This document shows, one piece after another, positions 25,504 to 36,130 of a DNA stretch of 64,000 nt (its first letter is position 1; each line of letters opens with the position of its first letter). Below the pieces are notes generated by a model. That model made no database searches, was not told the origin of the DNA, and saw only the letters and a program-made list of their open reading frames with translations. The DNA lies in the NCBI GenBank assembly GCA_027620655.1, contig JAQCDS010000005.1, positions 1 through 64,000 of the forward strand. Direction: 5' to 3'. The DNA is from Bacteroidota bacterium (GTDB lineage: Bacteria; Bacteroidota; Bacteroidia; Flavobacteriales; Flavobacteriaceae). Both the position numbers and the translations under genes were made by a program.

Positions 25504-26760
25504 TTAAAGCTCAAAATCTGTTTTAATTGCTTCAACATAATCCAGTTTTTCCCAAGTAAAAAGTTCTACATCCAACACCCGTTTTTCGCCATTGGGCAGA
25601 TAAAATACCTTTTCCACAGTTTCGTTTGTACGCCCCATATGACCATAAGCAGCGGTTTCGCTATACATGGGCGATCGTAATTTTAGACGTTGTTCAATGG
25701 CTGCGGGACGTAGATCAAAAAGCGCTGCAATCTTTTGTGCAATAGCCCCATCGCTGAGGTCTACTTTGGCCGTGCCATAAGTGTCTACAAAAACTCCCAT
25801 TGGTTCTGCCACACCAATGGCATAGCTGACTTGGACTAAAATTTCTGAACATACGCCTGCAGCAACCATATTTTTGGCAATATGACGCATCGCATAGGCC
25901 GCTGATCGGTCTACTTTACTTGGGTCTTTTCCAGAAAATGCACCACCGCCGTGCGCTCCTTTTCCGCCGTAGGTGTCTACAATAATTTTGCGTCCTGTAA
26001 GTCCAGTATCACCATGAGGGCCACCAATGACAAACTTTCCTGTAGGATTGATATGATAGGTAATATCATCATTAAAAAGTGCTTGAGTCGCCTTTGGTAA
26101 TTTTGAGATTACTCGTGGAATCAAAATGGCTTTGATATCTTTTTTAATTGTATCAAGCATTTCTTTTTCATCTTCCGAAAAATCATCGTGTTGAGTTGAA
26201 ATTACAATAGAATCAATGCGCAATGGCACATTATCGTCACTATATTCAATGGTGACCTGACTTTTGGAATCTGGTCGTAGATATGTAATTTCTTTATGTT
26301 CTCGGCGTAATTCTGCTAATTCTTTTAAAATCAGATGAGATAAATCTAAAGCCAAAGGCATGTAGTTTTCTGTTTCGTTGGTGGCATAACCAAACATCAT
26401 ACCTTGATCTCCAGCACCTTGATCTTCAGGATTTTCTTTGTCTACCCCTCTATTGATATCATCGGATTGCTCGTGAATGGCAGACAATACACCACATGAA
26501 TTGCCATCAAACATATATTCGCCTTTGGTGTAGCCAATTTTATTGATGGTCTCTCTAGCAATTTGTTGCACATCCAAATACGTCTTAGATTTGACTTCAC
26601 CAGCCAAAATAACTTGCCCTGTTGTCACCAAAGTTTCACAAGCGACTTTGGATTGTGGATCAAAAGCTAAAAAATGATCGATTATTGCATCACTTATCTG
26701 GTCTGCAACCTTGTCTGGGTGACCTTCAGAAACACTTTCAGATGTAAATAAATAACTCAT
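25504..26760 (-). CDS. metK: S-adenosylmethionine synthetase
   Basis: [53 protein letters not shown]. Confidence 0.97.
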
Positions 26761-26773
26761 AATTTAGTTTTAT

Positions 26774-26857
26774 GAGGAAAAATAAGTGCAACAAGCTAAA
26801 AGGAATTACTGCTTTAGCTTTTTTTTATGAGGTTGCAATCAGATCAAATTTATCCTC
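26774..26857 (-). ncRNA. Structured metK 5' leader, candidate SAM riboswitch (class unresolved)
   Basis: RNA strand: nested stems GAGGAUAAAU/AUUUUUCCUC (1 mismatch), UGCAAC/GUUGCA, AAGCUAAA/UUUAGCUU; conserved-looking CUGAUUGCAACC and GCUAAAG segments; directly precedes metK. Confidence 0.5.
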
Positions 26858-26870
26858 TATTAGTCGACTG

Positions 26871-26962: not shown

Positions 26963-28057
26963 ATGATAAAACACATACTTCAATATGCTTTTTTGTGTTT
27001 GTTTTTTTTGAGTAATGCTCAAAAAGAAAACCCTAGTTCATTTATTGATGTCAATATGTATTCTGGGAATATTGCGCGCCACAATGATAATATTGCTCAT
27101 CTGATTCAAGGGCATCCCAATGGTTTTATAATTGGTTGGAATAAGCGTGTTTCTGGGGGAAAAATATGGCATTCTCAGTACAATTACCCTGAATTTGGGG
27201 CTTCTTTTGTAGCTCAAAATTTTAATAATTCAACACTTGGCTCATCTTATGGAGTATATGGGCATTACAATTTTTACTTTTTAAAAAGATGTTTGATGCT
27301 TCGAATCGCACAAGGGGTTTCTTATGCCACAAACCCTTATGATAAATTCAAAAATCCAAAAAATATAGCTTTTGGTTCTGATTTATTGAGTGGTACTTAT
27401 TTGATGCTTAATTATGTTCGTCCTCAAGTCTTTGGCCCTGTAGGTGTACAGGCTGGAGCAACATTATTGCATTTATCCAATGCCAATATAAAGGCCCCAA
27501 ATACGAGTATCAATTCCGTTACATTTAATCTTGGTCTTACTGCTGCTCTAGATGATAATATAAAAACTAAAGGAATTGAAACCTTTGAAGAGGTTATAAA
27601 CAAAAAAATAAGGTTTGGATTGATATTTCGAACCGGAATCAATCAAAGTGATGTGGTAGGGACACCTCAGTTTCCTTTTTATATCTTTTCAGCTTTTGCA
27701 GAAAAACGCCTAAATCCGAAAAGTTTAATTATGATTGGTAGCGAATATTTCAATTCAAAATTTTTAAAAGAATACATTTATTATCAAAGTGTCGCCTATC
27801 CAGAAAATAATATTGATCATGATTTGGATTACAAACGCATTGGGGTTTATGTTGGCCACGAACTTCTTTTTGGAAGATTTTCAGTGCAAACGCAATTAGG
27901 GTATTATGTATATTCTCCTTTTGATTTTGAAGGGCGTGTGTACAATAGAATTGGAATGAAGCATTATTTGTCATCAAAATGGTTTGTGAGTGCAACTTTA
28001 AAATCACATGCGGCAAAGGCTGAAGCCTTAGAATTTAGTTTTGGAATACGATTATGA
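26963..28057 (+). CDS. Acyloxyacyl hydrolase / PagL-like lipid A deacylase family outer membrane protein
   Basis: Signal peptide MIKHILQYAFLCLFFLSNAQ (internal Met preferred over ORF start 26918); PVGVQAGATLLHLSNANIKAPNTSIN resembles the PagL-type His-Ser motif region. Confidence 0.75.
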   Translation: MIKHILQYAFLCLFFLSNAQKENPSSFIDVNMYSGNIARHNDNIAHLIQGHPNGFIIGWNKRVSGGKIWHSQYNYPEFGASFVAQNFNNSTLGSSYGVYGHYNFYFLKRCLMLRIAQGVSYATNPYDKFKNPKNIAFGSDLLSGTYLMLNYVRPQVFGPVGVQAGATLLHLSNANIKAPNTSINSVTFNLGLTAALDDNIKTKGIETFEEVINKKIRFGLIFRTGINQSDVVGTPQFPFYIFSAFAEKRLNPKSLIMIGSEYFNSKFLKEYIYYQSVAYPENNIDHDLDYKRIGVYVGHELLFGRFSVQTQLGYYVYSPFDFEGRVYNRIGMKHYLSSKWFVSATLKSHAAKAEALEFSFGIRL

Positions 28058-28803
28058 GAACATCTCTTTTATATGGTGTAATTTTTCTAATAATGTCTTG
28101 TGCCAAAGATAATGCTCCGAATTGTATTCAAATTGCAGGAGATTTAACAATATTAGAACAAAATATTGATCCATTTGATCGTATTTTGGTCAATGAAAAT
28201 ATAGAACTAATTCTTTTACAAGGTTCGGACTATCACCTTAAAATAGAATCAGGGGAGCATTTGATATCTGATATAAATTATACTATTGATAACACTGGTT
28301 TATTGACGCTTAATGATAATAATCAATGCAACTGGGTACGAAACTATGCACCAACGAAAATTTTTGTAACAACTCCAAATCTTAAAGAAATACGAAGCAA
28401 TACACAATACAGCATCAAATCGGAAGGTCTACTGACGTTTCCAAATCTTAAGTTGATTTCTGAAAATTTTAATGAAGATAATATAAGTTCTGGGGATTTC
28501 AATCTAATAGTTCAGAATGAAAGTATAAGTGTTATTTCGAACAATATCTCCCAATTTTTTATTTCGGGGAACACAGACACTCTTTTTGTGGGGTTTTACT
28601 CTGGAACTACAGCTTTTTTTGGGGCAAATCTGTTGGCGCAGGATGTCGAAATTTCTCATCGTAGCAGTCATGATATTACTGTACATCCTGTTCAGTCTTT
28701 GAGTGGAGTATTGCGCAGTACGGGGAATTTAATTTCAGTCAATGAACCACCAAATGTAGAGGTATCAGAACTCTATACAGGGACTTTAATCTTTATAAAC
28801 TGA
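28054..28803 (+). CDS. Lipoprotein with GIN/DUF2807-like domain
   Basis: Lipobox IMSC; FDRILVNENIELILLQGSDYHLKIESGEHLISDI pattern; 4-bp overlap with upstream CDS. Confidence 0.65.
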   Translation: MRTSLLYGVIFLIMSCAKDNAPNCIQIAGDLTILEQNIDPFDRILVNENIELILLQGSDYHLKIESGEHLISDINYTIDNTGLLTLNDNNQCNWVRNYAPTKIFVTTPNLKEIRSNTQYSIKSEGLLTFPNLKLISENFNEDNISSGDFNLIVQNESISVISNNISQFFISGNTDTLFVGFYSGTTAFFGANLLAQDVEISHRSSHDITVHPVQSLSGVLRSTGNLISVNEPPNVEVSELYTGTLIFIN

Positions 28804-28915: not shown

Positions 28916-28945
28916 TTTGTTTTGAAAAAAAAATATTTACTTTAG
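28916..28945 (+). promoter_or_regulatory. Candidate promoter of the aromatic amino acid operon
   Basis: TTTG-N18-TACTTTAG, close to TTTG-N19-TAnnTTTG (one mismatch in the -7 box), about 17 bp upstream of the leader ORF. Confidence 0.5.
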
Positions 28946-28961
28946 CCGTTCATTATCTATA

Positions 28962-29039
28962 ATGAAACACACAAATTATACAACATATAGCTGGTTTTAT
29001 TTCTTTTTTAGCGAAAAGAACGAGACTTTGTTTGTATAA
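28962..29039 (+). CDS. Aromatic-rich attenuator leader peptide (25 aa) MKHTNYTTYSWFYFFFSEKNETLFV
   Basis: ATG...TAA read directly; 8 of residues 6-16 are Y/W/F incl. WFYFFF; followed by alternative terminator/antiterminator stems. Confidence 0.85.
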   Translation: MKHTNYTTYSWFYFFFSEKNETLFV

Positions 29040-29070
29040 TTTTAAACAATAAATTTAAATGTAAGTCTCG
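29021..29070 (+). promoter_or_regulatory. Antiterminator pairing of the aromatic attenuator
   Basis: cgagactt (29021-29028) pairs perfectly with aagtctcg (29063-29070); inner tgttt/aaaca stem extends it. Confidence 0.8.
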
Positions 29071-29094
29071 GTCCAAAAGCCGAGATTTTTTTTT
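29063..29094 (+). terminator. Attenuator terminator of the aromatic amino acid operon
   Basis: aagtctcggt-ccaaaa-gccgagattttttttt; 9 T immediately before the pheA ATG. Confidence 0.88.
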
Positions 29095-29916
29095 ATGATA
29101 AAAAAAGTTGCCATACAAGGAATTCAAGGATCATTTCACGATATCGTTTCAAAAAATTATTTTTTGAACGCTGTTGAAACCTTACCTTTTTTGACATTCA
29201 ATGAAGTGGTGTGCAGTCTTGCTCAACATAAAGCTGATGCAGCGATTATGGCACTTGAAAATTCTATTGCAGGTTCAATTATTCCAAATTATGCATTAAT
29301 TGATACTAATGAACTTCATATAACAGGGGAATATTATTTAGACGTACAGCATAATCTAATGGCGCTATCTGGCCAAAATATAATGGATATCAAAGAAGTT
29401 CACTCACATCCAATGGCTTTATTGCAGTGTAAAGTGTTTTTTGATCAATATCCACATATCAAATTGGTAGAGGATAGCGATACGGCAGAAGTGGCGAAAC
29501 GAGTTCATGACCAGCAACTTCTAGGTATTGCAGCCATTGCAAGCGAAGCTGCAGCCGAAATTTATCAATTGAAAATATTAGCGAAAAGCATTCAAACGAT
29601 CAAGCAAAACGAAACCCGATTTGTTATTGTAGAACGCCATCAAAATTCATCTGCAACGATTAATAAAGCCTCATTAAAATTCATGTTAGACCACAAACGA
29701 GGAAGTTTGGCTGCGATGCTAAATGTGATGAGTGACTGCAAATTGAACTTGACAAAAATACAATCTCTACCAAAAATTGATACTCCTTGGAAATATGCTT
29801 TTTTCGTGGATGTCACCTTTGATGCCTATGAAGATTATCAAAAAGCAAAGTCTATTATGACCATTATGGCTGAAGAATTTAAAGTTTTAGGAGAATATAA
29901 AAATGCTAAACAATGA
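29095..29916 (+). CDS. pheA: Prephenate dehydratase with C-terminal ACT domain
   Basis: VAIQGIQGSFHD; ENSIAGSI; NETRFVIVERH; ACT region. Confidence 0.93.
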   Translation: MIKKVAIQGIQGSFHDIVSKNYFLNAVETLPFLTFNEVVCSLAQHKADAAIMALENSIAGSIIPNYALIDTNELHITGEYYLDVQHNLMALSGQNIMDIKEVHSHPMALLQCKVFFDQYPHIKLVEDSDTAEVAKRVHDQQLLGIAAIASEAAAEIYQLKILAKSIQTIKQNETRFVIVERHQNSSATINKASLKFMLDHKRGSLAAMLNVMSDCKLNLTKIQSLPKIDTPWKYAFFVDVTFDAYEDYQKAKSIMTIMAEEFKVLGEYKNAKQ

Positions 29917-31058
29917 GTAGTGTAGCCCATCGATTACATACTGTTGAAGAGTATTATTTTTCAAGAAAATTGAAGGAAGTACGCGCGCTCTTAACAGATG
30001 GTAAACCAATAATTAATTTGGGGATAGGAAGTCCAGATTTACCACCGCCACCACAAGTAGTTGAAGCACTCAATACTAGTCTTTCAGATGTAACCGCACA
30101 CAAATATCAGAGTTATCAAGGGTTGCCAGAACTAAGAATGGCTATTTCTGATTTTTACAAAAAGAATTATGATGTAGAATTGAATTCTGAATCTGAAATT
30201 CTCCCACTCATGGGAAGTAAAGAAGGAATTATGCATATTTCGATGGCATATCTCAATGAAGGTGATGCGGTACTTATTCCAAATCCTGGCTATCCAACCT
30301 ACAGCTCTGTTACAAAGCTAATGGGGGCAACGCCAATTTTTTATGATTTAAAATACGAATCGCAATGGCAACCAAATCTTGATGAATTATCAAAAATGGA
30401 CTTGTCTAAAGTAAAACTCATGTGGGTGAATTATCCACATATGCCAACAGGAACAAAGGCATCAAAATTGCACTTATCTGCGTTGATTCAATTTGCGAAA
30501 GCACACAATATTTTATTGATTAATGACAATCCATATAGCTTTATTTTAAATGATAATCCAACAAGTATTTTCAATTTTGAGGGGGCCAAAGATGTTTGTT
30601 TAGAGCTAAATTCTTTGAGTAAATCGTTCAATATGGCGGGTTGGCGTGTGGGCATGCTTTCAGGTGCTGCACGTCACATAGAAAATGTCATTAAGGTAAA
30701 AAGTAATATGGATTCTGGAATGTTTTATGGTGTTCAAAAAGGAGCTGTAGAGGCACTTAAATCATCAACACAATGGTTTAAGGAGTTGAATGCTGTTTAT
30801 GAAAAACGCCGACAACTTGTTTGGCAATTGGCCACGCAATTGGGTTGTGATTTTGATAAAAAAACATCAGGAATGTTTGTTTGGGCAAAACTTCCGCTAG
30901 GCATCGACTCAGAGGAATTTATTGATGAATTACTTTATAAGAAAAATATATTTATAGCTCCTGGAACTATTTTTGGTTCCAATGGAAATGGATATGTTCG
31001 TTTCTCTCTTTGCGCATCAGAAAAGTCTATTAATGAAGCCATAAAACGTACTGTATGA
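29913..31058 (+). CDS. Class I/II PLP-dependent aminotransferase (aromatic pathway)
   Basis: NLGIGSPDLPPP; NPGYPTYSSV; LNSLSKSFNMAGWRVGM; ATGA overlap with pheA. Confidence 0.92.
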   Translation: MSSVAHRLHTVEEYYFSRKLKEVRALLTDGKPIINLGIGSPDLPPPPQVVEALNTSLSDVTAHKYQSYQGLPELRMAISDFYKKNYDVELNSESEILPLMGSKEGIMHISMAYLNEGDAVLIPNPGYPTYSSVTKLMGATPIFYDLKYESQWQPNLDELSKMDLSKVKLMWVNYPHMPTGTKASKLHLSALIQFAKAHNILLINDNPYSFILNDNPTSIFNFEGAKDVCLELNSLSKSFNMAGWRVGMLSGAARHIENVIKVKSNMDSGMFYGVQKGAVEALKSSTQWFKELNAVYEKRRQLVWQLATQLGCDFDKKTSGMFVWAKLPLGIDSEEFIDELLYKKNIFIAPGTIFGSNGNGYVRFSLCASEKSINEAIKRTV

Positions 31059-31906
31059 AAAATATATATGTCATAGGGGTTGGACTCATTGGAGGTAGTT
31101 TTGCTTTAGATTTAAAAGCTCTAAAACCTGATGTTGTTGTGTATGGAATAGATCATAATGAAGCGCATTTGACCACAGCATTAGAATTAGGATTGATAGA
31201 TAAAAAGGCCATTTTGAATGATATTAAGAATGCCGATTTAGTAATTTTATCCATTCCTGTAAATGCGACATTAAAACTTCTTCCAACGCTTTTAGATCTT
31301 ATTCCAAAACAAGGGATTGTTGTTGATATGGGTTCTACAAAAGAGGCTATATGCAAGGTTGTAGATGACCATCCGAAACGATCACAGTTTTTGGCCAATC
31401 ATCCTATTGCAGGAACAGAATTTTCTGGACCAACAGCGGCACATGTGGGGTTATTCAAAAACAAAACTAATATCATTTGTGATATTGAAAAAACAGACAC
31501 AGAACGTTCAAAAAAGGTGATTTCAATTTTTGAATCTATTGGGATGCGTATTCGACATATGAACGCAAAAGATCATGACAAACACATTGCCTATGTGTCT
31601 CACCTGTCTCACATTAGCTCATTCATGCTTGGGAAAACCGTTATTGACAAAGAGAAAAACGAAAGCAATATTTTTGATATGGCTGGTAGTGGATTTGAGT
31701 CTACAGTACGGCTAGCAAAAAGTTCACCAGAGATGTGGACCCCAATTTTTGAACAAAATAAAACTAATGTTATTGAAACATTAGACGAGTATATTCAAAA
31801 TTTGACACACTTCAAAAAATTAATGGAGTCCGAAGATTTTGAAGCTATTCGAAACGAAATGAAAAACACAAATTATATAAAAACAATACTTAAAGGAATT
31901 TCTTAA
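31055..31906 (+). CDS. tyrA: Prephenate dehydrogenase
   Basis: GVGLIGGSFALDLK; HPIAGTEFSGP; HDKHIAYVSHLSHISSF. Confidence 0.92.
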   Translation: MKNIYVIGVGLIGGSFALDLKALKPDVVVYGIDHNEAHLTTALELGLIDKKAILNDIKNADLVILSIPVNATLKLLPTLLDLIPKQGIVVDMGSTKEAICKVVDDHPKRSQFLANHPIAGTEFSGPTAAHVGLFKNKTNIICDIEKTDTERSKKVISIFESIGMRIRHMNAKDHDKHIAYVSHLSHISSFMLGKTVIDKEKNESNIFDMAGSGFESTVRLAKSSPEMWTPIFEQNKTNVIETLDEYIQNLTHFKKLMESEDFEAIRNEMKNTNYIKTILKGIS

Positions 31907-31918
31907 ACCAAAACCACT

Positions 31919-33001
31919 ATGGAAAATAGTAAACAACTTAGAACATGGTTAGATGATTTAAAATTAGATCATCCACTAGTCATTGCAGGGCCATGCAGTG
32001 CAGAAACAGAAGAGCAAGTTTTAAAAATTGCTCACGAACTTAAAGACTCAGATGTTAGTTATTACAGAGCAGGGATTTGGAAACCTCGAACTCGCCCAGG
32101 TAATTTTGAAGGCGTTGGTGCTTTGGGTCTCAAATGGCTTCAAAAAGTAAAAGCCGAAACAGGACTAAAAACAGCAACAGAAGTAGCCAATAGAGCACAC
32201 GTAGAGTTGGCACTAGAACATGATATCGACTTACTTTGGATTGGTGCACGCTCAACAGTAAGTCCGTTTATTGTCCAAGAAATTGCAGATGCATTGGAGG
32301 GGACCGATAAAATTGTTTTGATTAAAAATCCTGTTAATCCAGACCTTGCATTATGGCTTGGTGCTGTAGAACGATTGGCTTCGGCAAATATTAAAAAATT
32401 AGGAGTCATTCATAGAGGGTTTTCAACTTATGAAAAATCAAAATATAGAAACAACCCAGAATGGCAATTGGCCATTGAGTTACAAACGAAATTTCCAGAC
32501 CTACCACTAATCAATGACCCTTCGCACATTACGGGAAGGCGTGATATGGTTTTTGATGTATGTCAAACAGCTTTGGATTTAAATTTTGATGGTCTAATGA
32601 TTGAAACTCATTTTGACCCCGATAATGCATGGAGTGATGCGGCACAACAAATTACACCAAGCACACTTATTCAGTACACTAAAGATTTAAAAATCCGTAA
32701 TGAAAGTATTACAGAAGCAGATTATAATAGTGAGCTTCAAAAATTACGTGCACAAATTGATGTCGCAGACAATCAACTTTTAGAAACATTAGGGAAAAGA
32801 ATGAAAGTTGCAGAAGCTATTGGGGCTCTAAAAAAAGAGAAAAATGTTGCCGTTTTACAAAGTAAACGTTGGAACGAAATTCTAGGTAAAATGGTTCTTG
32901 ATGGGGAGCAGCATAGTCTAAGTGAGGAGTTTATCCTGAAACTTTTTAAGGCCATTCATCAAGAATCCATCAATCATCAAAAACAAATTTTGAAAGGATA
33001 A
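31919..33001 (+). CDS. Bifunctional DAHP synthase / chorismate mutase (type II)
   Basis: VIAGPCSAETEEQ; GIWKPRTRPGNFEGVG; C-terminal LQKLRAQIDVADNQLLETLGKRMKVAEAIGALKKEKNVAVLQ. Confidence 0.94.
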   Translation: MENSKQLRTWLDDLKLDHPLVIAGPCSAETEEQVLKIAHELKDSDVSYYRAGIWKPRTRPGNFEGVGALGLKWLQKVKAETGLKTATEVANRAHVELALEHDIDLLWIGARSTVSPFIVQEIADALEGTDKIVLIKNPVNPDLALWLGAVERLASANIKKLGVIHRGFSTYEKSKYRNNPEWQLAIELQTKFPDLPLINDPSHITGRRDMVFDVCQTALDLNFDGLMIETHFDPDNAWSDAAQQITPSTLIQYTKDLKIRNESITEADYNSELQKLRAQIDVADNQLLETLGKRMKVAEAIGALKKEKNVAVLQSKRWNEILGKMVLDGEQHSLSEEFILKLFKAIHQESINHQKQILKG

Positions 33002-33102: not shown

Positions 33103-34053
33103 ATGACAGGAACGGTTTATAAATCGACAGGTAGTTGGTACACTGTCAAAGCTTTGAATGGTGCTTTTTACGAGTGCCGTATCAAAGGGAAATTCCGTAT
33201 GCAAGGTATTAAAAGCACAAATCCTATTGCAGTGGGTGATGTTGTTGATTTTGATTTAGAAACGAGTAATAATAAAGAGACCGGTGTCATTAAAACTATT
33301 CATACACGAAAAAATTATATTGTCAGAAAATCTGTAAATCTTTCCAAACAAACCCATATAATTGCGAGTAATATTGATCAGGTCTTTTTGTTGGTTACCA
33401 TCGACAACCCACCAACATTTACAAGTTTTATAGATCGTTTTTTGGTCACTGCTGAAGCTTATGGAATTAAAACCATTTTGTTGTTTAACAAAATGGATAC
33501 TTACGATAGTGATACTAAATCTATCGTAGAAAATTTGATTCAAATTTATACTAAAATTGGATACGATTGTCTTAAAATATCTGCCAAATTGAGTGAAAAT
33601 TTAGAAGCTGTAAAATTAAAAATGAATGGAAAAATTAGTATGTTTTCTGGACATTCTGGAGTAGGAAAATCGACACTTGTAAACACCATCGAACCTCAAC
33701 TGAATTTAAAGACCAAAGCCATTTCTGAGCAACATCAACAAGGTCAACATACAACTACTTTTGCGGAAATGTTTGATTTAAGTTTTGACGCTAGGATTAT
33801 TGACACCCCTGGGATTAAAGGATTTGGTGTTGTAGACATGGAGCCAGCAGAATTGGATCATTATTTTCCAGAGTTATTTGCCATAAAAACGCATTGTAAG
33901 TTTCACAATTGTCTTCATTTACATGAGCCAAAATGTGCTGTAAAAACAGCTGTTGATTCAGGCGAAATAGCGTCATCGCGCTACAAATCGTATCTGCAAA
34001 TTCTACAATGCGAAGAGGCTAATTATCGAACCGATTCATACGATACAGCATGA
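33103..34053 (+). CDS. rsgA: Ribosome small subunit-dependent GTPase A
   Basis: FSGHSGVGKSTLVN; DTPGIKGFGV; zinc motif CKFHNCLHLHEPKC. Confidence 0.95.
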   Translation: MTGTVYKSTGSWYTVKALNGAFYECRIKGKFRMQGIKSTNPIAVGDVVDFDLETSNNKETGVIKTIHTRKNYIVRKSVNLSKQTHIIASNIDQVFLLVTIDNPPTFTSFIDRFLVTAEAYGIKTILLFNKMDTYDSDTKSIVENLIQIYTKIGYDCLKISAKLSENLEAVKLKMNGKISMFSGHSGVGKSTLVNTIEPQLNLKTKAISEQHQQGQHTTTFAEMFDLSFDARIIDTPGIKGFGVVDMEPAELDHYFPELFAIKTHCKFHNCLHLHEPKCAVKTAVDSGEIASSRYKSYLQILQCEEANYRTDSYDTA

Positions 34054-34502
34054 GAGCAGTGATTCAAAGAGTTACAAGAGCAAGTGTAACTATTAATAAT
34101 AAAATTGAAGGTCAAATTGCATTAGGGGTTCTTATTTTTTTAGGTATTGTTGCTGAAGACACCTTAGAGGATATAAAATGGTTGAGTAAAAAAATTTCAA
34201 ACCTTAGGATATTTAGTGACGAAAATGACGTGATGAATTTATCTTTAATCGACCAAAATTTTGAGGCACTAGTTATTAGCCAATTTACGTTACATGCACA
34301 AACTAAAAAAGGCAATCGGCCTAGTTATATAAGAGCTGCACGACCAGAAATTGCAATACCATTGTATGAGGAGTTTATCCGTCAATTACAACACGATTTA
34401 GGCAAGGAAGTTCAGTCGGGGGTTTTTGGTGCAAACATGGAAATAGACCTTTTAAATGATGGCCCAGTTACTATTATCATTGATACAAAAAACCGTGAAT
34501 AA
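34050..34502 (+). CDS. dtd: D-aminoacyl-tRNA deacylase
   Basis: MRAVIQRVTRASVTI; ISQFTLHAQTKKGNRPSY; VQSGVFGANMEIDLLNDGPVTI. Confidence 0.96.
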   Translation: MRAVIQRVTRASVTINNKIEGQIALGVLIFLGIVAEDTLEDIKWLSKKISNLRIFSDENDVMNLSLIDQNFEALVISQFTLHAQTKKGNRPSYIRAARPEIAIPLYEEFIRQLQHDLGKEVQSGVFGANMEIDLLNDGPVTIIIDTKNRE

Positions 34503-34580
34503 TTCTTAGTTAATTTAAGACGATATTATTTGATATAAAAAGGACATTAACTACTTTAGTTCTTTGTAAAATAGAAAGTT

Positions 34581-34907
34581 ATGAATCTTCAAAACGCACA
34601 AGAAACAGTTGACCAATGGATTAAAACTCATGGGGTACGCTATTTTAATGAACTCACCAATATGGCACAACTTACAGAGGAAGTAGGGGAGGTAGCTCGT
34701 ATTATTGCACGCCGTTATGGAGAGCAAAGCGAAAAGGAATCTGATAAGAACAAAGATTTAGGTGAGGAATTGGCCGATGTTATTTTTGTGGTGCTTTGTT
34801 TGGCAAATCAAACGGGGGTAGATTTACAAGCCGCTTTTAACAAAAATCTAGATCTAAAGACAAAACGAGACCATAACCGTCATCATTCCAATCAAAAATT
34901 AAAATAG
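34581..34907 (+). CDS. MazG-like nucleotide pyrophosphohydrolase
   Basis: LTEEVGEVARIIARRYGEQ; DLGEELADVIFVVLCLANQTGVDL. Confidence 0.9.
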   Translation: MNLQNAQETVDQWIKTHGVRYFNELTNMAQLTEEVGEVARIIARRYGEQSEKESDKNKDLGEELADVIFVVLCLANQTGVDLQAAFNKNLDLKTKRDHNRHHSNQKLK

Positions 34908-34909
34908 AA

Positions 34910-36130
34910 GTGCAGATTCAACTGAAAAAATCCAAGATTAATTCATTTTCTGAATTGAAAATAACAGGTTCTAAAAGTGAATCGAACAGAGTTTTATTGC
35001 TTCAAGCACTATTTGAAGGATTAGAAATAAAAAACGTATCCAATTCTGATGACAGTCAATTGATGCAAAAAGCTCTAAAATCAAACTCTTCGGTTGTAGA
35101 TATTCATCATGCAGGAACAGCAATGCGTTTTTTGACTGCATATTATGCAACACGCTTGGGAAAAACAACAACACTAACAGGTTCTTCGCGAATGCAAGAA
35201 CGCCCAATTAAAATTTTAGTAGATGCATTGAACACTTTAGGAGCCTCAATTTCCTATACCAAAAATGATGGTTATCCACCCTTATTGATAGAAGGCAAAA
35301 CGCTTACAAAAAGCAACGTACAGATGAAAGCCAATGTTAGCAGTCAGTATATTTCTGCTTTACTACTCATTGCACCAACATTAGAAAATGGATTAACACT
35401 TCATTTGGAGGGAGAAATTACCTCTACACCATACATAAAAATGACACTTTCGTTGCTCAATGAATTGGGTGTTCAAACAAGTTTTGAAACCAATACCATT
35501 ACGGTATTTCCATTTCGTCAATTAACTTCAAAAACTTTTGTTGTAGAATCAGATTGGTCTTCAGCATCTTACTTTTACAGTATTGTTGCGCTTAGTCCAG
35601 TGGGCACTCAAATTGCTATTTCAGAATATAAGTCCACAAGTTTACAGGGTGATGCAATACTTCAAAAAATTTATAAAGATTTGGGTGTAGAAAGTACATT
35701 TAATGGAACTACGCTCATTTTAAAAAGAATTGAAACCTCATTTCCAAATTGCTTATCTATTGATTTATCAAATACTCCAGACATCGCACAAACTATTGCT
35801 ATAACATGTTTAGGATTGAAAATAGATTGTGATTTGACGGGGTTACACACTCTAAAGATTAAAGAAACAGACAGGTTGGTGGCCCTTCAAAATGAAATTC
35901 AAAAATTAGGAACAACCATAACTATTACAAATAACAGCTTACAACTGAAATCGCCATTGGATTTAAATTCAGATGTTGTGATTAGCCCCTATAACGATCA
36001 TCGAATGGCTATGGCATTTGCACCACTTGCCCTAAAAACACCACTTTTTATTGATGATGCAGAGGTGGTTTCAAAATCATATCCTGACTTTTGGAATGAT
36101 CTTAAAGCTATTGGATTTACAATAGAGTAA
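34910..36130 (+). CDS. aroA: 3-phosphoshikimate 1-carboxyvinyltransferase (GTG start)
   Basis: ITGSKSESNRVLLLQAL; HHAGTAMRFLTAYYA; SSRMQERPI; KETDRLVALQNEI; YNDHRMAMAFAPLAL. Confidence 0.94.
   Translation: MQIQLKKSKINSFSELKITGSKSESNRVLLLQALFEGLEIKNVSNSDDSQLMQKALKSNSSVVDIHHAGTAMRFLTAYYATRLGKTTTLTGSSRMQERPIKILVDALNTLGASISYTKNDGYPPLLIEGKTLTKSNVQMKANVSSQYISALLLIAPTLENGLTLHLEGEITSTPYIKMTLSLLNELGVQTSFETNTITVFPFRQLTSKTFVVESDWSSASYFYSIVALSPVGTQIAISEYKSTSLQGDAILQKIYKDLGVESTFNGTTLILKRIETSFPNCLSIDLSNTPDIAQTIAITCLGLKIDCDLTGLHTLKIKETDRLVALQNEIQKLGTTITITNNSLQLKSPLDLNSDVVISPYNDHRMAMAFAPLALKTPLFIDDAEVVSKSYPDFWNDLKAIGFTIE

Follow-up and report, generated by a model that had tools for sequence, protein, structure and literature searches.

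A predicted ribosome-mediated attenuator with a phenylalanine- and tyrosine-rich leader peptide upstream of the aromatic amino acid operon of Flavobacteriaceae

We analyzed a 64,000-nucleotide stretch of a Bacteroidota contig (here called the window) and consider it highly probable that the aromatic amino acid operon it carries is controlled by a classical ribosome-mediated transcription attenuator. The assignment is based on a leader open reading frame (ORF) rich in aromatic codons and three helices, all of them conserved and the helices covarying, on the spacing between these elements, and on the agreement of the control codons with the regulated pathway. The operon lies on the forward strand and begins with pheA, encoding prephenate dehydratase (PDT domain; positions 29095 to 29916), followed by a gene for a class I/II aminotransferase (29913 to 31058), tyrA, encoding prephenate dehydrogenase (PDH_N/PDH_C; 31055 to 31906), and a gene for a fusion of DAHP synthase and chorismate mutase (DAHP_synth_1 and CM_2; 31919 to 33001). 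These domain assignments uphold the operon content given in an initial annotation of the window, and the gene order is kept in 78 of 80 loci. The DAHP synthase of the operon is the only one found in the genome: no type II protein (PF01474) was detected, and the other PF00793 protein is KdsA. Downstream of the operon, rsgA, dtd, a MazG-like gene, and an aroA-like (EPSP synthase) gene follow at 33103 to 36130 on the same strand, and transcription of the operon might, judging from this arrangement, extend into them. Elsewhere in the window, a SAM-II (long loop) riboswitch was identified on the minus strand (26804 to 26863; 64 bits), just 5' of an S-adenosylmethionine synthetase gene (25504 to 26760, minus strand); it is the only match to an Rfam model at gathering score within the window.

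All elements of the putative attenuator lie on the forward strand directly upstream of pheA. A promoter-like site of the Bacteroidota type (28917 to 28945) consists of a -33 TTG (28917 to 28919) and a -7 element, TACTTTAG (28938 to 28945), separated by an 18-nt spacer. Such sites are frequent in relatives: 90 of 115 loci have one 7 to 33 nt before the leader ATG, whereas control windows taken farther upstream contain one in 13 of 209 cases. Transcription would be expected to start a few nucleotides 3' of the -7 box, just before a leader ORF of 25 codons (28962 to 29039), which encodes MKHTNYTTYSWFYFFFSEKNETLFV and carries aromatic residues at positions 6, 9, and 11 to 16. The continuous run W11-F12-Y13-F14-F15-F16 (28992 to 29009), whose tryptophan codon is TGG at 28992 to 28994, is the presumed stall site, and the leader stop codon is located at 29037 to 29039.

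Four RNA strands are arranged around this ORF. Strand 1 (28973 to 28991) is the 5' arm of a protector helix. Strand 2 opens with the 5' arm of the antiterminator, cgagactt (29021 to 29028), which overlaps leader codons 20 to 23 and begins 11 nt downstream of the aromatic run, the most common spacing among leaders. Its distal part (29029 to 29042) forms the main 3' arm of the protector helix and overlaps the stop codon, which is past the antiterminator arm. Strand 3 (29063 to 29072), supported by pairing, fold, and covariation, contains both the 3' arm of the antiterminator, aagtctcg (29063 to 29070), of which cgagactt is the exact reverse complement, and the 5' arm of the terminator, which makes the two structures mutually exclusive. 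Strand 4 (29079 to 29088), supported by fold and covariation, completes a terminator hairpin of 10 pairs, including G-U, and is followed by T residues to 29094, with the pheA ATG at 29095. The position and conceptual translation of the leader ORF, the perfect antiterminator pairing, and the sharing of its 3' strand with the terminator had all been described in the initial annotation and were confirmed here. The protector helix, in which 28973 to 28991 pair with 29024 to 29042 in the minimum-energy fold, is an addition to that description.

These features stand out locally. The fold of the 146-nt leader gave a z score of -4.2 against shuffled sequences, and that of the terminator alone a z score of -4.05. 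Two terminator-like sites were detected between 28800 and 29200, against an expectation of 0.0; one of the two is simply this hairpin read on the minus strand. Among the 644 ATG-initiated ORFs of 15 to 40 amino acids in the whole window, only the leader ORF has at least six aromatic residues in any eight.

Conservation was assessed upstream of pheA genes taken from 43 relative genomes and 80 named loci, with a leader defined as an ATG-initiated ORF of 14 to 32 codons that contains at least five aromatic residues in eight and is followed by an intrinsic terminator. Of 124 loci, 116 have such a leader with its terminator ahead of pheA, compared with 0 of 620 dinucleotide shuffles and 0 of 573 other genes of the same loci, where two nominal matches proved to be pheA itself read from an internal start. 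Two of the eight loci that failed this definition (L008 and L015) carry a leader started with GTG. A covariance model made from 66 leaders matched 140 of 151 Flavobacteriaceae genomes, and pheA was likewise found in 140 of the 151. When coordinates were compared by hand, the match lay upstream of pheA on the same strand in 137 of the 140 pheA-bearing genomes, nearly always at a distance of at most 350 nt; two of the remaining three genomes (G384 and G404) have an aromatic leader although the covariance model missed it. An unannotated leader peptide is predicted in most Flavobacteriaceae genomes. Secondary matches of the model in nine genomes were rejected as ordinary terminators after unrelated genes.

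Insertions part the attenuator from pheA in two genomes, by 513 nt in G024 (locus L013) and by 917 nt in G434. A transposase-like ORF (HFNRGNNKENIF...NHFHLVF) is located between attenuator and pheA in the latter (L250; G434:C8:144000-145400). No leader was found at the pheA gene of G034, and the leader is absent from three distant pheA genes (L037, L043, and L044). In other families of the class, 26 of 32 loci possess an aromatic leader, for example with the run FYFYFYF. In more distant families, the count falls to 5 of 27 loci, and most loci outside the class are without a leader. Outside the class, pheA-like matches in four genomes (G191, G333, G334, and G340) lie in open frames of about 700 amino acids, the length of which suggests fused proteins; two of these genomes, G191 and G340, also have an aromatic leader. 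A search for pheA in viral contigs retrieved none.

Covariation in the alignment of 66 leaders was observed for all three helices. In the terminator, 97% of cells are paired and six pairs show compensatory change; in the antiterminator, 82% of cells are paired, with compensatory change in seven of eight pairs; in the protector helix, 70% are paired, with compensatory change in 15 of 17 pairs. The covariation score of the protector helix was 0.250 against 0.160 in shuffled alignments (0 of 500 as high), the scores of terminator and antiterminator likewise exceeded all 500 shuffles, and every slid control scored lower. Since alignment shuffles ignore relatedness, the slid controls and the swaps between clades carry more weight. 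Strand 2 varies together with strands 3 and 4 by clade, with GTCTC, GTCCC, ATCCTG, GACCGC, and other types, and as a rule it pairs best with strand 3 of the same clade type. Both the leader ORF and the alternative stems, whose conservation in relatives had been proposed as a check in the initial annotation, are therefore conserved.

The leader ORF also carries a coding signal. Counting differences between nearest-neighbor pairs of leaders, we found 56 third-codon-position differences, compared with 44 ± 3.9 expected, and an excess of synonymous codons (35, compared with 23.7 ± 3.1 expected). Aromatic residues were lost 19 times against an expectation of 43.9, a figure partly conditioned by the way leaders were selected.

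These data bear on three other explanations of the element. Under translational attenuation, the hairpin would block ribosome entry at the pheA start and the leader ribosome would decide whether it opens. The T run ending at 29094, immediately before the ATG at 29095, fits such an arrangement, as does the adjoining of T run and ATG in several close relatives; however, the terminator is found 20 to 120 nt upstream of pheA in many relatives and is separated from it by the 513- and 917-nt gaps in the two genomes with insertions, and the conserved T run is itself a terminator feature, leaving this mechanism unlikely. A structured 5' region carrying a terminator ahead of an amino acid operon is also what a riboswitch or T-box binding an amino acid or tRNA directly would look like. 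Its conserved core, however, is an aromatic ORF in which substitutions follow a codon pattern, the control residues differ from pathway to pathway, and the leader has no match to any T-box or riboswitch in Rfam even at an E value of 10. We rejected this identity for want of a model match and regard it as very improbable. The probability that a short ORF arose by chance beside an ordinary terminator of the upstream gene (28054 to 28803) is close to nil: that gene is on the same strand and the terminator does lie between it and pheA, but about 260 nt past its stop codon and adjoining pheA, and the shuffles, the control genes, the covariation, and the genome-wide specificity all speak against such an origin.

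The geometry of the leader, by comparison, fits ribosome-mediated transcription attenuation. The gap between the aromatic run and strand 2 is 7 to 12 nt, with a mode of 11, which is roughly how far the leading edge of a ribosome lies from the codon at which it stalls. Ribosomes of assumed footprint length were placed on the leaders in a calculation. When the ribosome occupied the end of the aromatic run, the 2:3 antiterminator formed before strand 4 had been transcribed in 99% of leaders. A ribosome positioned on the stop codon covered strand 2, and the 3:4 terminator then formed in all leaders. Spacing and placement both match the stall-versus-stop geometry initially proposed. At full equilibrium, the terminator of the window leader beats the antiterminator, with a 2:3 probability of 0.0015 once strand 4 is present; antitermination must therefore be kinetic. 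In a calculation without a ribosome, the protector helix has no clear advantage over 2:3, although the helix is conserved and covaries, and termination in the absence of translation is consequently not well predicted.

From these sequence features, we infer that the leader is translated, that ribosomes stall on it, and that transcription terminates in the cell in response to amino acid supply. Transcription would start just 5' of the 25-codon leader ORF. When Phe-tRNA or Tyr-tRNA is uncharged, the ribosome would stall within W11 to F16, and Trp-tRNA would possibly be a further stall signal in lineages with a tryptophan codon, such as that of the window. The stalled ribosome would cover strand 1 and leave the RNA from 29021 onward free, so that strand 2 could pair with strand 3 as it emerges and RNA polymerase could continue into pheA. 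When charged tRNAs are plentiful, the ribosome would reach the stop codon at 29037 to 29039 and cover strand 2; strands 3 and 4 would then pair, forming an intrinsic terminator that ends at about 29094, immediately before pheA.

The identity of the control codons follows the regulated pathway elsewhere in the same genome. A trpE leader, MNRKNQNTWWWTTRSQKS, with the run WWW and a terminator (G000:C16; L139, L236) and a hisG leader, MKNNNLHHHHFHTGPQASCMCME, with the run HHHH and a terminator (G000:C13; L165, L237) were found. In relatives, leaders with a tryptophan run and a terminator occur at 21 of 23 trpE loci, and leaders with a histidine run at 20 of 20 hisG loci.

Gene loss provides a natural test of whether control codons follow pathway content. 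The pheA gene is missing from 11 of the 151 Flavobacteriaceae genomes, all 11 of which have kept the DAHP synthase-chorismate mutase gene; where the surroundings are comparable, pheA, the aminotransferase gene, and tyrA are absent before the DAHP synthase gene, and rsgA usually still follows it. A strong trpE is present in eight of these genomes and none such in three. In six of the eight (L286-L290, L293), the DAHP synthase gene is preceded by a Trp-Trp leader with a terminator, the motifs being AWWH, FWWH, YWWH, NWWL, IWWY, and TWWS. Strand 2 is similar in five of the six, which may represent a single lineage; the independent events may therefore number only two. The seventh genome has a single tryptophan in the leader before its DAHP synthase gene, and in the eighth, G369, a second DAHP synthase-like gene lies about 6 kb away from trpE. 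In the three pheA-less genomes without trpE, no leader was found at the DAHP synthase gene, one of these (G426) being poorly judged near a contig end. In G369, a leader with the run YYYY, MKNLNNTYYYYPILTRRIGQ, precedes a gene for phenylalanine hydroxylase (L239; G369:C4:189500-191700), which makes tyrosine from phenylalanine, and is accompanied by a matching antiterminator, AGAATCGG/CCGGTTCT, and a terminator. This single case is a possible tyrosine-specific attenuator. No tyrosine leader was found at 14 other phenylalanine hydroxylase loci, a weak negative for the type of about 590 amino acids, whose gene starts are uncertain. Control codons are cognate to the products of their operons in each setting, with Phe/Tyr at pheA, WWW at trpE, HHHH at hisG, WW at the DAHP synthase gene, and YYYY at the phenylalanine hydroxylase gene, in the sister leaders as well as after gene loss.

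The initial annotation had proposed that the leader reads all three aromatic aminoacyl-tRNA pools. The phenylalanine and tyrosine part of this claim holds throughout, both residues being present in all 101 distinct leaders; the tryptophan part does not stand as a general feature. Only 53 of the 101 contain tryptophan, so about half are without it, and we rejected tryptophan as a universal control residue; any tryptophan sensing would be specific to lineages. It is thus conceivable that the same attenuator senses only phenylalanine and tyrosine in practice, the single tryptophan codon being a passenger in the aromatic run, and we regard this reading as evenly poised. In its favor, 28 of 29 Flavobacterium-type leaders lack tryptophan, even though nearly all loci retain the operon order; at 5.9% of the aromatic residues in leaders, compared with 10% in the proteins of the window, tryptophan is not enriched; and a separate WWW leader precedes trpE in the same genome. 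On the other hand, 58 of 86 leaders that are not of the Flavobacterium type contain tryptophan (compared with the 1 of 29), its position being constant within one large clade, and a stall at W11 would likewise leave strand 2 free. Tryptophan synthesis also depends on the DAHP synthase of the operon, which makes tryptophan sensing plausible in a genome where this enzyme is the only one, and the Trp-Trp leaders found after pheA loss indicate that such a leader can evolve tryptophan control. For the leader of the window, its sequence makes tryptophan sensing a sensible possibility, at about even odds, rather than a defining feature.

A broader reading places these variants within a single, evolvable aromatic attenuator that would be found throughout the class Bacteroidia and whose control codons would be replaced as the pathway is remodeled. 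Ahead of the full operon they would be Phe/Tyr, joined by Trp in some lineages; a lone DAHP synthase gene would have Trp-Trp and phenylalanine hydroxylase Tyr alone, and the leader would be missing where no aromatic amino acid is made. The leader of the window would then be a true three-input sensor. In our judgment, this broader reading could equally well be right or wrong.

Such an attenuator requires a ribosome close behind RNA polymerase; if it operates as proposed, it would also provide direct evidence that transcription and translation are coupled in a group whose translation starts mostly without Shine-Dalgarno sites. The pheA leader would also be a ready-made reporter for amino acid limitation and for such coupling in Bacteroidota. 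It would extend attenuation to the common entry step together with the phenylalanine and tyrosine branches, with tyrosine as a control residue.

Vitreschak et al. reportedly touched on attenuators in Bacteroidota in 2004. Our partial literature search retrieved no account of the Phe/Tyr(/Trp) leader itself, and an earlier description is possible. A 2021 transcriptome study of Flavobacterium psychrophilum (PMC9723704) reports a structured 5' element upstream of pheA that is conserved in Flavobacteriaceae and has no Rfam match, and it mentions leader-peptide attenuation for amino acid operons. As described there, that element is very probably orthologous to the one in the window; the main text of the study gives no leader peptide, control codons, alternative pairing, or distribution beyond the family.

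The listed Rfam family in this phylum is a tryptophan leader, the Bacteroid-trp RNA (RF01692), described as a Bacteroidete tryptophan peptide leader (Weinberg et al. 2010, PMC2864571). It resembles the present element in combining a leader peptide with control codons and alternative hairpins before a biosynthetic operon, but RF01692 has tryptophan codons only and belongs to the trp operon, whereas the leader described here has Phe/Tyr codons, with or without Trp, and precedes a pheA-tyrA-DAHP synthase operon. The trpE leader of the window genome scored 44.5 bits against RF01692, just under the gathering score of 49; the pheA leader gave no match and was rejected as a member. It was also rejected as a member of Phe_leader (RF01859; 23.4 bits, E = 0.16, far under the gathering score of 55), the enterobacterial pheL/pheM type, with which it shares a phenylalanine-rich leader peptide, an antiterminator, and a terminator. 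In that type, pheL precedes pheA and reads phenylalanine alone, whereas every leader here has phenylalanine and tyrosine and the operon also holds tyrA and the DAHP synthase gene. Leaders that read more than one tRNA pool are known from the ilvGMEDA (Ile/Val/Leu) and thr (Thr/Ile) operons of Escherichia coli, so multi-input leaders as such are not new, but those concern other amino acids and another phylum. Ribosome-mediated attenuation is a textbook mechanism; what is unusual about this attenuator is its breadth, a mix of aromatic residues conserved across much of the class.
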